Part shown: positions 52,031 to 60,102 of the stretch, piece by piece | Position numbering within the stretch: position 1 is the stretch's first letter | Layout: every line of letters begins with the position of its first letter | Assembly: GCF_000772105.1 (NCBI RefSeq) | Contig: NZ_CP009354.1 | Coordinates: forward strand, 930,001 to 994,000 | Reading direction: 5' to 3' | DNA length: 64,000 nt | Origin: Vibrio tubiashii ATCC 19109 | Lineage (GTDB): Bacteria > Pseudomonadota > Gammaproteobacteria > Enterobacterales > Vibrionaceae | Made by a program: the position numbers and the translations under genes | The notes under the pieces: model-generated | The model's input: only the letters and a program-made list of their open reading frames with translations | Database searches by the model: none | What the model was told of the DNA's origin: nothing

Positions 52031-52918
52031 ATGAAACGTTTTCTAACGGCGTGCGCAATTGTACTCGCAAGTACGTCTATTGCCCAAGCATCAACCGTTC
52101 TAACCAGTATCAAACCAATTCAGCTCATCACAGTTGAGTTGACAAAAAACATCTCACAAGCTGAGGTACTCCTTGGTTCAAACACCTCACCTCATGACTA
52201 TGCATTGCGTCCTTCAGACGTAAAACGCCTACGAAATGCCGATCTCGTTGTTTGGTACGGTAATGACTTGGAACCGTTTTTAACCAAAGTCCTTAAAGAT
52301 CAAGACAATGTACTGACATTGAGTGATATCAATGGGTTAGAGTTGCGTGAATTTGCTGGTGGCCATCACGACCATCATGGTCACGACGGGCATGATCATG
52401 GTTCTCACGATCCTCACTTTTGGTTAGGCTATAAACCGACAATGCAAGTGGCGGAAGCGATCACGCAAAAACTTGTTGAGTTAGATGCGACCAACAAAGC
52501 TGAGTACGTAAAAAATCTAGAAGTCTTTAAGCAGCAGTTAACCGAACAGAAAGCAGCAATCACTAAACAGTTAGCGCCAGTTGCTGATGCGGGCTACTAT
52601 GTCTTCCATGATGCTTATGGTTACTTTGAGCAAGATTTCCCTCTAAATCACCTTGGCTATTTTACGGTGAGCCCAGAGCGCAAACCAGGCGCGAAAACAC
52701 TGATCTCTATCCGTAAAACGCTAGCGGCTGAACAAGCGCGATGTGTATTTTCAGAGCCTCAGTTCACACCAGCAGTGGTTGAATCAGTCACTCGTGGTAG
52801 TAACGCTAAAACAGGTGTCCTAGATCCATTGGGTATTGATGTCGAAGCGGTTGAAGGTGGCTACTTTAAGTTTAAGCAAAACCTTGCTGATAGTTTTAGC
52901 AACTGCTTAACGCGCTAA
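52031..52918 (+). CDS. znuA: Periplasmic zinc-binding protein ZnuA
   Basis: ZnuA captures zinc in the periplasm and passes it to ZnuB. The 295 residues begin with a signal peptide (cleaved after about residue 20, ASTSIAQA). Zinc ligands fit the family: His60-region GSNTSPHDYALRPS, a His/Asp-rich loop (about 113-132, HHDHHGHDGHDHGSHDPHF), YYVFHDAYGYFEQDF, and a C-terminal pair of Cys. It is expressed divergently from znuCB under Zur. Confidence 0.96.
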   Translation: MKRFLTACAIVLASTSIAQASTVLTSIKPIQLITVELTKNISQAEVLLGSNTSPHDYALRPSDVKRLRNADLVVWYGNDLEPFLTKVLKDQDNVLTLSDINGLELREFAGGHHDHHGHDGHDHGSHDPHFWLGYKPTMQVAEAITQKLVELDATNKAEYVKNLEVFKQQLTEQKAAITKQLAPVADAGYYVFHDAYGYFEQDFPLNHLGYFTVSPERKPGAKTLISIRKTLAAEQARCVFSEPQFTPAVVESVTRGSNAKTGVLDPLGIDVEAVEGGYFKFKQNLADSFSNCLTR

Positions 52919-53300: not shown

Positions 53301-56300
53301 TTGAGTAAGATTGCAACTTTGCTGCTTTTTCTCCTCTATACGGGAGTGACGATGGCGGCAAATACGTCACCTAAGCTGTTTTATCCTTTGCCAACTTTAG
53401 CGCAGGGGAAGGTGTTCGCTGCCAAGCAATTATTCCTTGCTGATGAGGGAGGAATTTGGCTGCAAGACGTACGCGATCAAGTGTTGTTCTTCGATGGGCA
53501 ACATATCCTTCCTGAAAAGGGCTCGGCGCTTGATCATGAAGCGTCACAAATCGCATTTCTAGACAACGCTTTTTGGTCATTTTTCCAAAACGAAATCTAC
53601 CGTACTGTTCCTAATCAAGAAAAGGAGTTGGTGTTTAGTTTAACGCCCGGAACAGAGATCCTAAAAATTGGTTCATCCAAGCGTTATATCTGGGTATCTG
53701 ATGAACGTAATTTTTATACCTATCAAATTGATAGTGGCGAGTTTCAAACCTTCTCCTTGATGGAGTTGTATCAGTACAACCAGTCCTCTCAAATCGCAAT
53801 TAGTGACGCTAAGTTTATTTTCTCTAAGTGGGTGGTGGCGACCAATGCGGGTGTTTATCTCTCTGAAGGGAGTCATTTTGAGCATGTTTCAAGTTCTGGC
53901 AAAAACTATGTCGAAAAACTCTACTTCTCTGAAAAGCGACGTGAACTGATCATTGGCTCATTGAATGGCGCGCTGATTTTCAATATCAACAAACCGAACG
54001 AGCCAATTCGCACCATCGCAGGTAGTCATGTACTGAGTATTACCGAAACGGATCAAGAGTACTGGATTGGCACCGAAAAAGGTCTGTTTGTTTATACCTT
54101 CTTAACAGGTGAAACTCAGAAGTTTGAGCAGGGGATTGGCGCAGGCAATAGTTTAGCGGGCGAAAAGATCTACTCTCTTCTCAACGATAATACTGGTGGG
54201 ATCTGGGTCGCCACCGATCGCGGTGTTCGCTATTTTTCTCTCTACTCGCATAAGTTTACCCGCTATTCAAATGAAGATATGTCAGTTGTGAGCCGAGGAG
54301 AAAAGCTCGTCGAGCTTTATCGTAGTAAAGGGCGGGACGGTTATTGGCTACTAACCAACAAAGGCGTTTTTAAGATAAATCTAGTTAAACCGTCTTCACG
54401 AAAACTGGTATTTCGCGGCAGTGTGCACGATGTAGAAGAACATAATGGTGTTCTGTGGTTGGCTACCGATAAAGGTATTGTCTGTGTTAATGCAGATACG
54501 GGCGAGGTTATCGATGATGACTTGCCCAACTTCCTAAAAACTAACACGGTGAGATTCCTAGAGTTTAACCACGGCAAAATGATCTGGGGTGCAAGTGATA
54601 CTCAACTGTGGAGTTTCGATCTGGTCAGTCGCAAGCTTACACAGTATGGTTCTGAGTGGATGATCGACAAATATCTCCCTGCTCAGTTAACTAATATGTA
54701 CGTGACTTCTCAAGACTATGTGACGTTAGGGACCGAGCATGGGATGTATGTCGTCCGCGATGGCCAGATTAGTTTTGTGGGGGAAAGTATCCCATTTGGT
54801 GAAGTGATTGATGCGGTGCAACCATCAGAAAGTGAGCTTTGGGTAGCCAGTCGCTATGGGCTGTATCGCTTAGATTTGTTCACTAATAATGTCGATCCCA
54901 TTGATATGGTTGATGGCCACGTAACACCAAAATGCTTGATTCAAAATCAAGACGGCATTTGGCTGACCTCATCCACAGGGCTTTCCCGTTACACACCTCA
55001 AGGCTCATTGACCCAGCATTATGGCGAACCATTTGGTGTCATCAGCAACGAATTTTTGCCGGGTGTGTGTACTTTTGGCAGCGACAGCGAAAAAAACATT
55101 TTCTTTGGGGCTGATAGCAGCCTAGTGAAGGTAAACACCCAGCAATTAGTGGTGAGTCGTTTACCCGATACACGTGTGATATTTAGCCAAATCAAGCGCA
55201 ATCAAAAGCTTTTTTCCTTAGCCAATACGGTGCAAGAAACACCACAAATCGGCTATGGAGAGTCGATCTTTTTCCAGTTTGGCTTTCTGCCGAGTGCTAG
55301 CAACATCAATCTTGAATATCGCTTGAACCAAAGTAGTGACTGGCAGGCACTGGACGGCAGTACCTTGACCATTGAACACCTCATGCCCGGGGAATATAGC
55401 CTAGAGGTTCGCGCCGTCAGGAATGGGCGAGTAAAAGGCAATAGCAACAGCTATCAGTTTCTGGTCACCGAACCTTGGTTTCTTAGTCACATTGCGATAG
55501 TTACTTACGTACTTGCGGTACTGGTTGTTATCGCGGTTATCGTTTACTGGCGTTCACGTTTAATGGCGAAGTCAAACCGCTTGCTTAAAGCCCAAGTGGC
55601 ACTCAAAACCAATCAGCTACGTCATCAAAGCCGAGTTTTGCTCGGCAACAACAATCAACTGCGTAAGCAGCTTGAAGTGCGTTGGTTGATTTATAGTCAG
55701 TCTGTCAATGAGTTAAAAGAGCGGCTTAACACAACTGCTTCTAACTCGTTAACCCATGAGCAGCTTATTGGTTATATGCAGCAAGAGCTAGAAACGTTAA
55801 TCAATGTGCGTTCAACGAATGGGCAAGCTCTTCCTGTATTTAATCTCACCATGATCGTGAATTCGGTGATCAGTAGTTGGAAAGATGAGCTAGCCAAGGT
55901 GGGAGTCAATGTTGAGCTTGAATCTGACCAAGAGCTATTTATAGGCCTGAATGACTTTAATCTTGATGAGCTATTTAACCTACTGTTTGATGGTATTTTA
56001 AGACGCTGCTATCGCAATCAAACGGTAGTGATTCAGTTAGCGCAAAAAGAGGGGATGGTTGTTTTCTCTATGCTGGATCAAGGTGATGCCTTTGACTCTA
56101 ATTCTGGTAGCGTGACATCATCAGATAACTTGCATAAGCTCGTCACGCAAAGCGGTGGCGAGATGAGCTTGTTTAGTTCTGAGGATCGCAACCTATTGGA
56201 AATCAGTTGGCAAGAGAGTGTCTCTTTCGAGAGCAACCCGATTGTGATGCCAGCAGACGAAGAGTGCGCTGAACTTGTCCACGATGACCCTTGGCTATCA

Positions 56301-56609
56301 AAGGTGATTCAATTGGTTGATGACCACTATACCGATCCTGAATTTAGTACCTCTTCTGCGGCTAAGATGCTCTACGTATCGGAGCGAAGCCTACAGCGCA
56401 GGCTTAAATCATCAATAGAGAAAACCTTCACCGAGTATTTGACAGAGGTGCGTTTAGACAACGCTTGTCGCCGATTACTTGCAGGGGAAAAGGTCTCGGA
56501 TGTTGCCTTTGAGTGCGGTTTCAATGACCCTTCTTACTTTAGCCAAAGGTTTAAGCACCGTTTTGGTATGTCACCAACCCAGTTTGTTGAGCAACAAAGC
56601 CGCTACTAG
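53301..56609 (+). CDS. Membrane regulator: beta-propeller sensor, kinase-like domain, AraC DNA-binding domain
   Basis: This 1102-residue protein resembles hybrid two-component regulators but lacks parts. In order: a signal peptide (about 1-19); a periplasmic beta-propeller with Reg_prop-type repeats (GIWVATDRGVRYFS, VLWLATDKGIVCV, ELWVASRYGLYRLD, GIWLTSSTGLSRY); a Y_Y_Y-like domain (about 660-725); a membrane helix (about 730-752); a coiled coil; a domain resembling HATPase (about 850-975) in which I see neither a kinase H box nor clean N or G boxes; and a C-terminal AraC-type HTH pair (about 994-1098, FECGFNDPSYFSQRFKHRFG). No receiver domain is present. The start is a TTG; the next ATG would remove the signal peptide. 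It lies between znuA and feoA behind a Fur box. Iron control is inferred; the ligand is unknown. Confidence 0.85.
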   Translation: MSKIATLLLFLLYTGVTMAANTSPKLFYPLPTLAQGKVFAAKQLFLADEGGIWLQDVRDQVLFFDGQHILPEKGSALDHEASQIAFLDNAFWSFFQNEIYRTVPNQEKELVFSLTPGTEILKIGSSKRYIWVSDERNFYTYQIDSGEFQTFSLMELYQYNQSSQIAISDAKFIFSKWVVATNAGVYLSEGSHFEHVSSSGKNYVEKLYFSEKRRELIIGSLNGALIFNINKPNEPIRTIAGSHVLSITETDQEYWIGTEKGLFVYTFLTGETQKFEQGIGAGNSLAGEKIYSLLNDNTGGIWVATDRGVRYFSLYSHKFTRYSNEDMSVVSRGEKLVELYRSKGRDGYWLLTNKGVFKINLVKPSSRKLVFRGSVHDVEEHNGVLWLATDKGIVCVNADTGEVIDDDLPNFLKTNTVRFLEFNHGKMIWGASDTQLWSFDLVSRKLTQYGSEWMIDKYLPAQLTNMYVTSQDYVTLGTEHGMYVVRDGQISFVGESIPFGEVIDAVQPSESELWVASRYGLYRLDLFTNNVDPIDMVDGHVTPKCLIQNQDGIWLTSSTGLSRYTPQGSLTQHYGEPFGVISNEFLPGVCTFGSDSEKNIFFGADSSLVKVNTQQLVVSRLPDTRVIFSQIKRNQKLFSLANTVQETPQIGYGESIFFQFGFLPSASNINLEYRLNQSSDWQALDGSTLTIEHLMPGEYSLEVRAVRNGRVKGNSNSYQFLVTEPWFLSHIAIVTYVLAVLVVIAVIVYWRSRLMAKSNRLLKAQVALKTNQLRHQSRVLLGNNNQLRKQLEVRWLIYSQSVNELKERLNTTASNSLTHEQLIGYMQQELETLINVRSTNGQALPVFNLTMIVNSVISSWKDELAKVGVNVELESDQELFIGLNDFNLDELFNLLFDGILRRCYRNQTVVIQLAQKEGMVVFSMLDQGDAFDSNSGSVTSSDNLHKLVTQSGGEMSLFSSEDRNLLEISWQESVSFESNPIVMPADEECAELVHDDPWLSKVIQLVDDHYTDPEFSTSSAAKMLYVSERSLQRRLKSSIEKTFTEYLTEVRLDNACRRLLAGEKVSDVAFECGFNDPSYFSQRFKHRFGMSPTQFVEQQSRY

Positions 56610-56792: not shown

Positions 56793-56859
56793 TGCTTTGA
56801 AATTACGATGTAGATCTTCTTTAAGCGTATTGGACAAGAGCTAATGGCTATAATCGCTT

Positions 56860-56976
56860 GCGTGAATTGCGTGAATTGCGTGAATTGCGTGAATTGCGTG
56901 AATTGCGTGAATTGCGTGAATTGCGTGAATTGCGTGAATTGCGTGAATTGCGTGAATTGCGTGAATTGCGTGAATT
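56860..56976. repeat. Tandem repeat: thirteen copies of GCGTGAATT
   Basis: Thirteen perfect 9-bp units lie between the regulator gene and feoA. The period is a multiple of three, so a frame stays open through it on both strands, but there is no ribosome-binding site or conserved flanking coding sequence, so it is treated as noncoding. Copy number is likely to vary. Confidence 0.95.
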
Positions 56977-57508
56977 GCTTAGAGAGAAAGAAAAAAAATA
57001 TCGTGGCATAGCCGGGGGGACTATACCACGGGTGCCAACGACACCTTCGCTTGCTGCCGGAGTGACGCTGATGCGCCACCTCTGGAATTCAATGTTGTCT
57101 TAAGGGATGCCCTCTCGACGTGATTAACTATAGCGAGTAGGACTTTTTTTACTTATAAAATTAACGCCAAGATGGCATAAGAAAAGCGACAGTTGACTAA
57201 GTTGATGTATATTAAGGAAAAATTGGTTTTTCTCTTTATTTGTTTCAGCAATTAATCTGCCCAAACAGTAAGAAAAAGCTATCTTTTGACGTAATTGACG
57301 AGTGCGCTTTTAACGTTTTTGCCTGGAGTGAGCCAAGCTAAAGGGCTTCTGTAACGGATCTAAAGAGTGGTTTATCAGAGGTGGTGGAGCATGCGAAATA
57401 CTCACCTTTGCCACAATAGGTAATTAGCGACCACAAGAGCCGTCTATAACCTCTTAATAGATAAATTGAGTCAGATATTCTCAACGCTTCTATCGAAACT
57501 TGGAAACA
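56977..57508. other. Unassigned intergenic region upstream of feoA
   Basis: About 530 bp follow the 9-bp array. I see no credible reading frame and no clear terminator. The segment from about 57020 to 57100 (GTGCCAACGACACC onward) is GC-richer than the rest and may be another degenerate repeat; the remainder is AT-rich. It probably includes distant regulatory DNA of feoABC; a small RNA cannot be excluded from sequence alone. Confidence 0.4.
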
Positions 57509-57598: not shown

Positions 57599-57826
57599 AT
57601 GAAACTCTCACAACTACAACAAGGGCAAGTCGCTACCATAACTGGTTTCTCAGAGCTCTCTAATGACGTGCGAAAAAAACTGATGGTGATGGGGCTTTTG
57701 CCACAAACACCGGTCACACTAATTCGAAAAGCCCCAATGGGTGACCCGCTACAAGTCGAAGTTCGCGGAGTTTCGCTTGCTGTCCGCGTTAACATTGCCG
57801 ATGCAATTACAGTGGAGGCGAACTAA
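57599..57826 (+). CDS. feoA: Ferrous iron transport accessory protein FeoA
   Basis: FeoA is a small SH3-like cytoplasmic protein required with FeoB for ferrous iron uptake in Vibrio. The 75 residues include the family segments MKLSQLQQGQVATITGF, LMVMGLLPQTPVTLIRKAPM and DPLQVEVRGVSLAVR. Its TAA shares a base with the feoB ATG (TAATG), so translation is coupled. Confidence 0.95.
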   Translation: MKLSQLQQGQVATITGFSELSNDVRKKLMVMGLLPQTPVTLIRKAPMGDPLQVEVRGVSLAVRVNIADAITVEAN

Positions 57827-60102
57827 TGGAATACAAAATTCTAACGGTTGGTAACCCTAATAGCGGTAAAACGACACTCTTCAATGGCTTAACAGGTACC
57901 AAGCAGCAAGTAGGTAACTGGGCAGGGGTCACTGTCGAGAAGAAAACAGGTAAGTACTCTCATTCTAGCGACGACTTTTTGCTTACCGACCTTCCGGGTA
58001 TCTACGCTTTAGACAGCGGCAATGATGGCAATAGTATTGATGAGTCTATTGCGTCAAGAGCAGTGCTAACCCATCCCGCAGACCTAATTATTAATGTTGT
58101 AGACGCCACTTGTCTTGAACGCAGCTTATATATGACTTTGCAGTTGCGTGAGCTTGGCCGACCTATGGTTGTTGTGCTTAATAAGATGGATGCGCTAAAG
58201 CGTGAGCGTCAGACCATCGACATTAAAGCGCTCGAAAAGGTGCTAGGTTGCCCAGTGATGGCAATCTCTGCCAACAACAAATCTCAAGTTCAATCCTTTA
58301 AGGACCGCTTACATAAAGCGTTAGTACAAGGTGTTGCACTAAATGAAATCCGCCTAGACTACGGGATCGAATTTGAGCAGGCAATTGAAACTATCTCGCC
58401 AATCTTCAAATCGCAATCTGAAGTATCGGCGCGAGCATTGGCAATACGTGCACTAGAAAACGATCTTCTGGTTGTTAACTCTCTAGCGGAATCTGACCGA
58501 GTGATCGTAAAAGCAGAGCAGCAGAAAGTTGAGCTAGATATCGATCTACTGGTTGCTGATGTGAAATATACTTTTCTTCACCAGCAGTGCCAGAAAGTCC
58601 GTCGCAGCGAAGGCAAACTAAGCCATAGTTTCACCGAGAAAGTGGATGCCATCATTCTCAACAAATGGATCGGTGTGCCTTTCTTCTTTGTTGTCATGTA
58701 TCTGATGTTTATGTTCTCTATTAATATTGGTAGCGCCTTTATCGACTTCTTCGATATTGGTGTTGGCGCTTTGCTTGTTGATGGTGGACATTATCTACTT
58801 GATGACCATCTACCAGTTTGGCTAGTGACCTTATTGGCTGACGGTGTTGGCGGCGGTATCCAAACCGTGGCAACGTTCATTCCTGTGATTGCTTGTTTGT
58901 ATCTATTCCTCGCGGTACTGGAAAGCTCTGGCTACATGTCGCGCGCGGCATTTGTGCTCGATAAAGTAATGCAGAAAATTGGTCTACCGGGTAAAGCCTT
59001 TGTTCCATTAGTTCTAGGCTTTGGTTGTAACGTGCCATCGATTATGGCGACACGTACGCTCGATCAAGAGCGTGAAAGAAAGCTCGCTGCCTCTATGGCA
59101 CCATTTATGTCATGTGGTGCGCGACTGCCCGTTTATGCATTATTCGCCGCGGCATTCTTTCCTCAAAGTGGTCAAAACATTGTTTTCGCACTGTATCTAT
59201 TGGGTATCGTTTCAGCCGTGTTTACGGGGCTGGTTCTCAAGAAGACACTTTACCCAGGCTCAAGTGATAGCCTGGTAATGGAGATGCCAGACTATGAACT
59301 GCCGACGATGCGCAATGTGGTGATCAAAACATGGCAGAAGCTGAAGCGCTTTGTTTTGGGCGCGGGTAAAACCATCGTTGTGGTTGTAACGATTCTGAGC
59401 TTCCTAAACTCAGTAGGTACTGATGGTTCATTTGGCAACCAAGACAGCGAAAACTCAGTGCTGTCGAAAGCATCGCAAATTGTTACGCCTGTATTTGCCC
59501 CAATTGGTATTCAAGAGGACAACTGGCCTGCCACGGTGGGTATCATCACGGGTATCTTTGCCAAAGAAGCGGTAGTCGGTACTTTGAATAGTCTCTATGC
59601 GCCAAGCGAAGAGGAAGGTGGGGAATACGACCTAATGGCGAGCCTTGAAGAAGCGGTAATGTCTATTCCAGATAACCTAGCAGGGCTAAGCTACTCAGAT
59701 CCACTGGGTATTGAAGTGGGCGACTTGACTGACAGCCAAGCGGTTGCAGAAGAGCAAGAAGTCGATGCGTCTATCTTTGGTAACTTGAAAGGCTATTTTG
59801 CTTCAAGCAATGCGGCATTTGCTTACCTTATTTTTATCTTGCTTTACACGCCTTGTGTTGCCGCTATGGGTGCCTACGTACGTGAGTTTGGTCAGAAATA
59901 TGCGCGTTTTATTGCGGTATGGACGATGGGCTTAGCTTACGGGAGTGCGGCGCTTTACTACCAAGTTACTCACTTTGCTGATCACCCTGCTACAAGTTCA
60001 GCGTGGATAGCAGGTATCTTGTTAGTGAGTTTTGCGACTTACCGAATTCTTAAGTCCGTGGGTAGCAAACAGAGCCAAGTTTTAGAGGTACAAACCGCAT
60101 GA
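57826..60102 (+). CDS. feoB: Ferrous iron permease FeoB
   Basis: FeoB is the inner-membrane ferrous iron transporter with an N-terminal nucleotide-binding domain. The 758 residues show G1 GNPNSGKTTLFNGLTG, G3 in LTDLPGIYAL, G4 NKMD, a helical linker (about 175-280), then about ten membrane helices with two gate motifs including FMSCGARLPVYALFAAAFF. Vibrio FeoB has been reported to accept ATP as well as GTP; that is not decidable from the sequence here. It overlaps feoA by 1 bp and feoC by 4 bp. Confidence 0.97.
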   Translation: MEYKILTVGNPNSGKTTLFNGLTGTKQQVGNWAGVTVEKKTGKYSHSSDDFLLTDLPGIYALDSGNDGNSIDESIASRAVLTHPADLIINVVDATCLERSLYMTLQLRELGRPMVVVLNKMDALKRERQTIDIKALEKVLGCPVMAISANNKSQVQSFKDRLHKALVQGVALNEIRLDYGIEFEQAIETISPIFKSQSEVSARALAIRALENDLLVVNSLAESDRVIVKAEQQKVELDIDLLVADVKYTFLHQQCQKVRRSEGKLSHSFTEKVDAIILNKWIGVPFFFVVMYLMFMFSINIGSAFIDFFDIGVGALLVDGGHYLLDDHLPVWLVTLLADGVGGGIQTVATFIPVIACLYLFLAVLESSGYMSRAAFVLDKVMQKIGLPGKAFVPLVLGFGCNVPSIMATRTLDQERERKLAASMAPFMSCGARLPVYALFAAAFFPQSGQNIVFALYLLGIVSAVFTGLVLKKTLYPGSSDSLVMEMPDYELPTMRNVVIKTWQKLKRFVLGAGKTIVVVVTILSFLNSVGTDGSFGNQDSENSVLSKASQIVTPVFAPIGIQEDNWPATVGIITGIFAKEAVVGTLNSLYAPSEEEGGEYDLMASLEEAVMSIPDNLAGLSYSDPLGIEVGDLTDSQAVAEEQEVDASIFGNLKGYFASSNAAFAYLIFILLYTPCVAAMGAYVREFGQKYARFIAVWTMGLAYGSAALYYQVTHFADHPATSSAWIAGILLVSFATYRILKSVGSKQSQVLEVQTA

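Follow-up and report, generated by a model that had tools for sequence, protein, structure and literature searches.

The stretch of Vibrio tubiashii ATCC 19109 DNA analysed here (NZ_CP009354.1, positions 930,001 to 994,000 of the forward strand; 64,000 nucleotides, hereafter the window) carries at 53301..56609 on the plus strand a gene for a regulator of 1102 amino acids, which is an orthologue of TfoS of Vibrio cholerae (VC2080) and quite probably conceals a degenerate histidine kinase core. The gene is a single open reading frame (ORF) of 1102 codons starting with TTG, and the opposite strand of the same region contains many stops. It has 267 homologues; among the 120 listed, those named to species come nearly all from Vibrio, and the query coverage is 97–100% for nearly all of the 120. 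The ORF is confirmed as real and not a chance reading. Several public records with 98% identity give a protein of 1085 amino acids, apparently begun at a later methionine, a start that would drop the signal peptide; the homologue P0013 (94% identity) has ATG where the window gene has its TTG.

The position of the gene supports the same identification. Its upstream neighbour, which defines the locus, and its two downstream neighbours are presumably znuA (52031..52918), feoA (57599..57826) and feoB (57826..60102); all three lie on the plus strand at conserved positions. The gene order znuB-znuC-znuA-tfoS-feoA-feoB was kept in all 29 loci tested (28 distinct), and in the window the small RNA gene tfoR is adjacent to tfoS, which lies between znuA and feoA. 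The V. cholerae proteins P0084 and P0096 share 40% identity with the window protein over 99% of the query. We take these two to be probable VC2080 proteins, an assignment that draws on a passage of PMC12282291 that names VC2080 as tfoS, a ‘transmembrane transcriptional regulator’. In V. cholerae, tfoR is placed between VC2078 and VC2080 in a passage of PMC8545128, and the window gene shares its neighbour order, its adjacent tfoR and this degree of identity with the TfoS proteins of chitin-induced natural competence (VC2080, VP0854). A paralogue in the same genome was ruled out, as the 16 other matches cover the AraC domain only. A class-wide sample of 274 genomes yielded no full-length TfoS from beyond the family (3 matched, including the window's own). 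A survey terms VC2080 nearly exclusive to V. cholerae (PMC12282291, in its section 15); the orthologue is, however, present widely across Vibrio at about 40% identity, so that this near-exclusivity is probably a threshold effect.

According to passages of PMC11856585, TfoS and ChiS bind and activate the tfoR promoter in V. cholerae, the two proteins interact directly through a contact that is supporting, not critical, and expression of TfoS in E. coli suffices for tfoR promoter activation (section 6). A passage of a V. parahaemolyticus paper (PMC7564644) cites earlier work in which TfoS was found to lack two-component signature domains, and likens its sensor to those of hybrid two-component systems (HTCS). 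That TfoS acts as a membrane-embedded one-component transcription factor, which the initial annotation had proposed for the window protein, is hence already known from V. cholerae, as reported in the passages of PMC11856585. The initial annotation had named neither TfoS nor tfoR.

The domain layout of the window protein is as follows (all coordinates on the plus strand). After a probable signal peptide (about residues 1–19, read by eye), residues 20–725 (53358..55475) form a periplasmic sensor of Reg_prop-type propeller repeats and a Y_Y_Y-like domain: one Reg_prop repeat lies above the Pfam cut-off, Y_Y_Y stays below it (16 vs 26.6 bits), and a PDB sequence search pairs the propeller with the HTCS sensor 4a2l (6.4e-17). 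A probable single transmembrane (TM) helix, likewise read by eye, spans residues about 728–749 (55482..55547). At the C-terminus, residues 994–1098 (56280..56594) form an AraC-type DNA-binding domain, assigned by Pfam (HTH_18 at 82.2 bits vs a cut-off of 33.6, plus HTH_AraC, within residues 1021–1097) and by fold, and matching AraC-type DNA-binding domains in the PDB sequence search. Between membrane and DNA-binding domain, we distinguish a membrane-proximal helix (residues 750–794, 55548..55682), delimited by identity, model and substitution ratios and belonging to a single long helix of the structure model; a remnant of a dimerization and histidine phosphotransfer (DHp) domain (residues 795–848, 55683..55844), placed by alignment; and a degenerate HATPase_c or catalytic and ATP-binding (CA) domain (residues 849–972, 55845..56216), recognised by fold, profile and alignment. 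Pfam found no HisKA, HATPase_c or Response_reg in the window protein up to E=10. A hidden receiver was rejected, because the linker 973–993 is too short for one and Response_reg gave no match. Descent from a dismantled kinase would explain why TfoS looks HTCS-like outside the cell and yet shows no two-component domain by standard annotation.

Several lines of evidence point to a kinase origin of this middle region. Structure modelling predicts a histidine kinase fold for residues 750–975, and a profile comparison (hhalign) aligns the CA part with hybrid kinases. Nine divergent orthologues were scanned: in five, the same region matched HATPase_c with E values from 6e-5 to 1.4e-3, none of them reaching the Pfam gathering score, and the other four gave no match. 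A chance resemblance to HATPase_c was rejected on these orthologue scores, the fold matches and the profile match. In an alignment with Photobacterium and outside kinases, the phospho-accepting histidine column is occupied by N803 (codon 55707–55709) and the catalytic asparagine column by G898; the place of the G1 box reads D926-Q-G928-D-A930, with A930 replacing the second G1 glycine, and the stretch of the G2 box is missing. The histidine is found in 4 of the 120 listed Vibrio-type homologues, the asparagine in 17 and DxGxG in 5; in 80 loci the corresponding counts are 5, 27 (at 898) and 4. GLGL occurs in neither set, and no sequence of either set combines histidine, asparagine and DxGxG. 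In the five loci with histidine, the motif is IHSFRERL or IHALRDKL, and the acidic residue that usually follows is lacking. Some residues of the core are newly invariant: R902 does not vary in any of the three Vibrio-type alignments, nor Q907 in two of them, with Y or F at column 902 in the Photobacterium rows. The motif reading of the initial annotation was borne out in each of its parts, namely the altered G1 place, the missing histidine and the missing receiver; neither an intact histidine with N and G boxes nor a receiver was found in the window protein. Judged from these motifs, the view that window TfoS has no working phosphorelay is supported.

The counterparts of TfoS in related genera reveal what the core may once have been. 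Homologues of other lengths came to light when 197 genomes of the family were searched (121 matches at 1e-60); two distant hybrid-kinase loci (L142, L143) were dropped, having no phmmer hit at 1e-5. The same-locus orthologue L150 of Photobacterium contains an H box (LSHELRTPL), NLLSNALKY, DTGKGM and FGLGLS, followed by a receiver and AraC, and scores 32.7 bits for HisKA, 85.4 for HATPase_c and 47.7 for Response_reg in Pfam. P. lipolyticum (L149) is alike but without the receiver, and L155 and L153 stop after the core and after the receiver, respectively, neither having AraC. All seven Photobacterium proteins scanned pass the HATPase_c cut-off, two that of HisKA and three that of Response_reg. 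Among the 31 best matches to L150, of which all named ones are from Photobacterium, 30 keep the N, G1 and G2 boxes and 23 have histidine, asparagine and G1 together, while the histidine is replaced by Q, N or S in seven; the remaining protein, P0154 of P. jeanii, has no kinase core. Pfam labels HATPase_c in 30 of the 31, HisKA in only 7 and a receiver in 16; ten more have an unlabelled receiver-sized stretch, three (P0127–P0129) have no receiver, and P0138 ends after the core. The same-locus Photobacterium orthologues thus possess the core, which supports its suggested degeneration in the window protein. In g335 (Enterovibrio-type), g342 and g339, by comparison, the protein consists of sensor, TM helix, short linker and AraC only (11 loci, frames of 908–959 codons); the pseudokinase form occurs in Vibrio, Aliivibrio and g341. 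Neither a kinase remnant in TfoS nor a kinase-bearing TfoS of Photobacterium was described in the open-licence PMC papers searched.

Decay is visible within Photobacterium as well. In L151, L152, L153 and P0142 the histidine has become N, S, Q and N, respectively, with the ATP-site motifs intact; this group requires three label changes by the tree and at least two by starred branches. In P0139 and P0145–P0153 the receiver-sized stretch that Pfam leaves unlabelled looks decayed (e.g. VASATLPGL in P0139), and the relay may be failing in these orthologues, too. At L170 (3911–6752, genus g344), the tfoS position is broken into several frames, by decay or assembly error.

Two trees were built, both quick searches without bootstrap. 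The TfoS tree, built with masked kinase columns from 68 of 77 protein rows (nine duplicates or near-duplicates excluded), contains long branches (L169 and the outgroups) and groups the core-less forms (branch value 96), Photobacterium (99) and 29 pseudokinase forms (100); the minimum number of changes among live-looking, dead and absent cores on it is three. The tree of ZnuB, ZnuC and FeoB (54 loci), in which two long rows (L145, L167) are joined, gave the same groups and put Photobacterium beside Vibrio/Aliivibrio (90). The core-less Photobacterium row L174 stands at the base of its genus in the TfoS tree vs inside it in the marker tree. The agreement of the two trees fits vertical descent. 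Outside relatives that share the sensor and AraC parts, in the same order, carry kinase and receiver domains by Pfam, aligned at the same position, and because of these relatives the kinase looks lost rather than absent from the start; we infer that the family started out with a complete hybrid kinase and that the losses followed.

Constraint on the dead core was assessed by the ratio of nonsynonymous to synonymous differences (pN/pS), pooled over 15 close pairs, uncorrected for multiple hits and including several pairs with saturated synonymous divergence. The ratio is 0.159 for the sensor, 0.066 for helix 750–794, 0.293 for the DHp remnant, 0.193 for the CA domain and 0.077 for AraC, and the mean pairwise identity over 37 rows is highest in the same helix (0.74), followed by AraC (0.70), sensor (0.46), CA domain (0.38) and DHp remnant (0.26). 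By these values, the core of the Vibrio/Aliivibrio pseudokinases is therefore under purifying selection, the membrane-proximal helix most of all.

The target gene published for TfoS lies next to it. tfoR (56992..57088, minus strand; Rfam RF02100, 102.9 bits against a cut-off of 70, E=1e-26) is convergent to tfoS, and about 100 bases upstream of it is a paired direct repeat TGTCG-N17-TGGCG (57165..57191, minus strand), a candidate AraC-type operator. In the window's genus, tfoR exceeds the cut-off in 80 of 80 sampled genomes with TfoS (E<=1e-60) and in 0 of 15 without it, two of these 15 having sub-threshold matches; in the sister-genus loci L149–L165 it does so in 11 of 17 (not in L153–L156, L162 and L164). 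Promoters were tested in 32 of the 35 loci tried, L163, L174 and L168 having no recognisable tfoR core, and included 4 of the 12 Photobacterium loci fetched. Of the 17 Vibrio/Aliivibrio promoters, 16 have a pair TGKCG-N15-18-TGNCG about 100 bases upstream of tfoR, as do all 4 from Photobacterium; a single TGGCG-N9-13-TA is present in 4 of 5 g335 and 3 of 3 g342/g339 promoters. Neither was found in three loci without intact TfoS (L145, L167, L170). Mononucleotide shuffles reproduced the pair in no more than 0.2% of cases and the single site in no more than 4%, for patterns chosen after the sequences had been seen. The paired repeat may be the TfoS site; ChiS, too, binds the tfoR promoter (in a passage of PMC11856585). 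L145, which represents another family of the order (G010), and L167 (genus g337) have tfoR over the cut-off between znuA and feoA (4935–5032 in L145), no TfoS having been found there; in L145, an ORF that resembles an M23 peptidase by eye takes the tfoS place. Between tfoS and the tfoR end lies a perfect 9-bp tandem repeat (56858–56978), TTGCGTGAA, in 13.4 copies; the corresponding site of V. europaeus L009 holds 3 copies, and no other fetched locus besides L009 and the window's own (L001, L105) has at least 2.

Altogether, we consider it likely that TfoS descends from a hybrid regulator which lost its receiver, its phospho-accepting histidine and its ATP site and kept the folded core. The ancestor would have consisted of propeller/Y_Y_Y sensor, TM helix, HisKA, HATPase_c, receiver and AraC. 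In the present protein, a chitin-derived signal in the periplasm might alter the sensor dimer, and this change would pass through the TM helix and the highly conserved helix 750–794 to a non-catalytic DHp/CA body, which could act as a mechanical spacer or gate for the pair of AraC domains binding the paired repeat upstream of tfoR; once bound there, the AraC domains would switch on tfoR, an activation already published for TfoS. The weakest point of this scheme is the step by which a dead core would come to transmit a signal. The ‘signal-transmitting scaffold’ of the initial annotation, a putative role of the dead core, fits the purifying selection on it; core-less orthologues exist. Several observations weigh against this explanation. 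The hhalign match leaves out the H-box stretch and takes in just the CA domain and the last part of the DHp region; the structure model has a pTM of only 0.54; HATPase_c, unmatched by Pfam in the window protein even at E<=10, reaches E<=1 in only 5 of 35 Vibrio rows (best 0.0054). The phospho-accepting column still holds histidine in the few sequences counted above, the DHp remnant is weakly conserved by identity and pN/pS alike, and the absence of the core from g335, g342 and g339 means that it is not needed in principle. Finally, in the Photobacterium genus g340 tfoR is over the cut-off in only 7 of 17 genomes with a TfoS-type match, and the Photobacterium kinase form may not always serve tfoR.

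Other explanations of the core deserve consideration. The dead core could be a docking module for a partner such as ChiS or a response regulator, much as DivL binds phosphorylated DivK. DivL (4q20) is among the fold matches of the core, and PMC4211667 (in its section 15) portrays it as a kinase core converted to a sensory module; ChiS and TfoS touch directly, and R902 and Q907 are invariant in three and two Vibrio-type alignments, respectively, with Y/F at 902 in Photobacterium. Against it, no folded part is less conserved than the DHp face to which a response regulator would bind (identity 0.26), and the ChiS contact is called supporting, not critical (passages of PMC11856585). We regard docking as possible but doubtful. 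The notion that the core is a functionless relic heading for deletion appears quite improbable: it would explain the core-less orthologues of g335, g342, g339 and one Photobacterium lineage, but the CA domain shows a pN/pS of 0.193, and fold, reading frame and new invariant residues are retained across Vibrio.

The same variation could be read in terms of kinase activity or of kinase gain. Histidine in 5, asparagine at 898 in 27 and DxGxG in 4 of the 80 loci might hint at a cryptic kinase with phosphate signalling persisting in some Vibrio; however, the three motifs never meet in one protein, GLGL is absent from both sets and the window protein has no receiver, all of which leaves this idea very hard to credit. 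If, instead, the root of the family had been kinase-less, a kinase would have been inserted once before the split of Photobacterium and Vibrio and would then have died in Vibrio. In the marker tree, the core-less genera do stand next to the group formed by Photobacterium and Vibrio, and change counts do not distinguish gain from loss, but the outside relatives carry kinase and receiver at the aligned position, and one core-less lineage inside kinase-bearing Photobacterium demonstrates that deletion does happen; we consider such an insertion unlikely. Given the descent from a hybrid regulator, the locus would present, somewhat more tentatively but still with the balance in its favour, a series of phosphorelay dismantling: a full hybrid kinase, a form without receiver, a form without phospho-accepting histidine, a folded pseudokinase and a form with no core, with related sensors, mostly AraC outputs, and the promoter repeat common to Vibrio and the tested Photobacterium.

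This arrangement can be set beside known regulators. The Bacteroides-type HTCS has propeller/Y_Y_Y sensor, TM helix, kinase fold and AraC in the same order as the window protein, which, unlike it, has no phospho-accepting histidine, receiver or, by motif, working ATP site. DivL is not known to have a DNA-binding domain, whereas in the window protein the dead core is placed between the periplasmic sensor and such a domain. The window protein would resemble ToxR/CadC/TcpP-type regulators in binding DNA from the membrane as a one-component system; these have an N-terminal DNA-binding domain and are not known to have a kinase core. DivL and other histidine pseudokinases, like the window protein, keep a non-catalytic kinase core as a folded body (PMC4211667, section 15). 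ChiS, as described in the literature, is a membrane-bound, noncanonical DNA-binding hybrid kinase of the chitin pathway that binds the same promoter as TfoS (passages of PMC11856585). The literature passages that call the two-component signature domains of TfoS absent (PMC7564644) mention neither a degenerate core nor kinase-bearing counterparts.

The view of TfoS as a hybrid kinase that has been taken apart, and whose counterparts in sister genera either bear a kinase or have no core, did not turn up in the papers searched. The working of membrane-anchored regulators is called poorly understood in a passage of PMC10269533, and direct chitin sensing by TfoS is stated as unclear in PMC11856585 (section 4). 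If the phosphorelay series at one locus is true, it would mean that an AraC domain can be driven by its sensor through mechanical means, and that the relay can be discarded without a change of target gene. With live-looking, dead and absent kinases at one and the same locus, the sister genera allow a direct comparison of the need for phosphate and of the role of the core.

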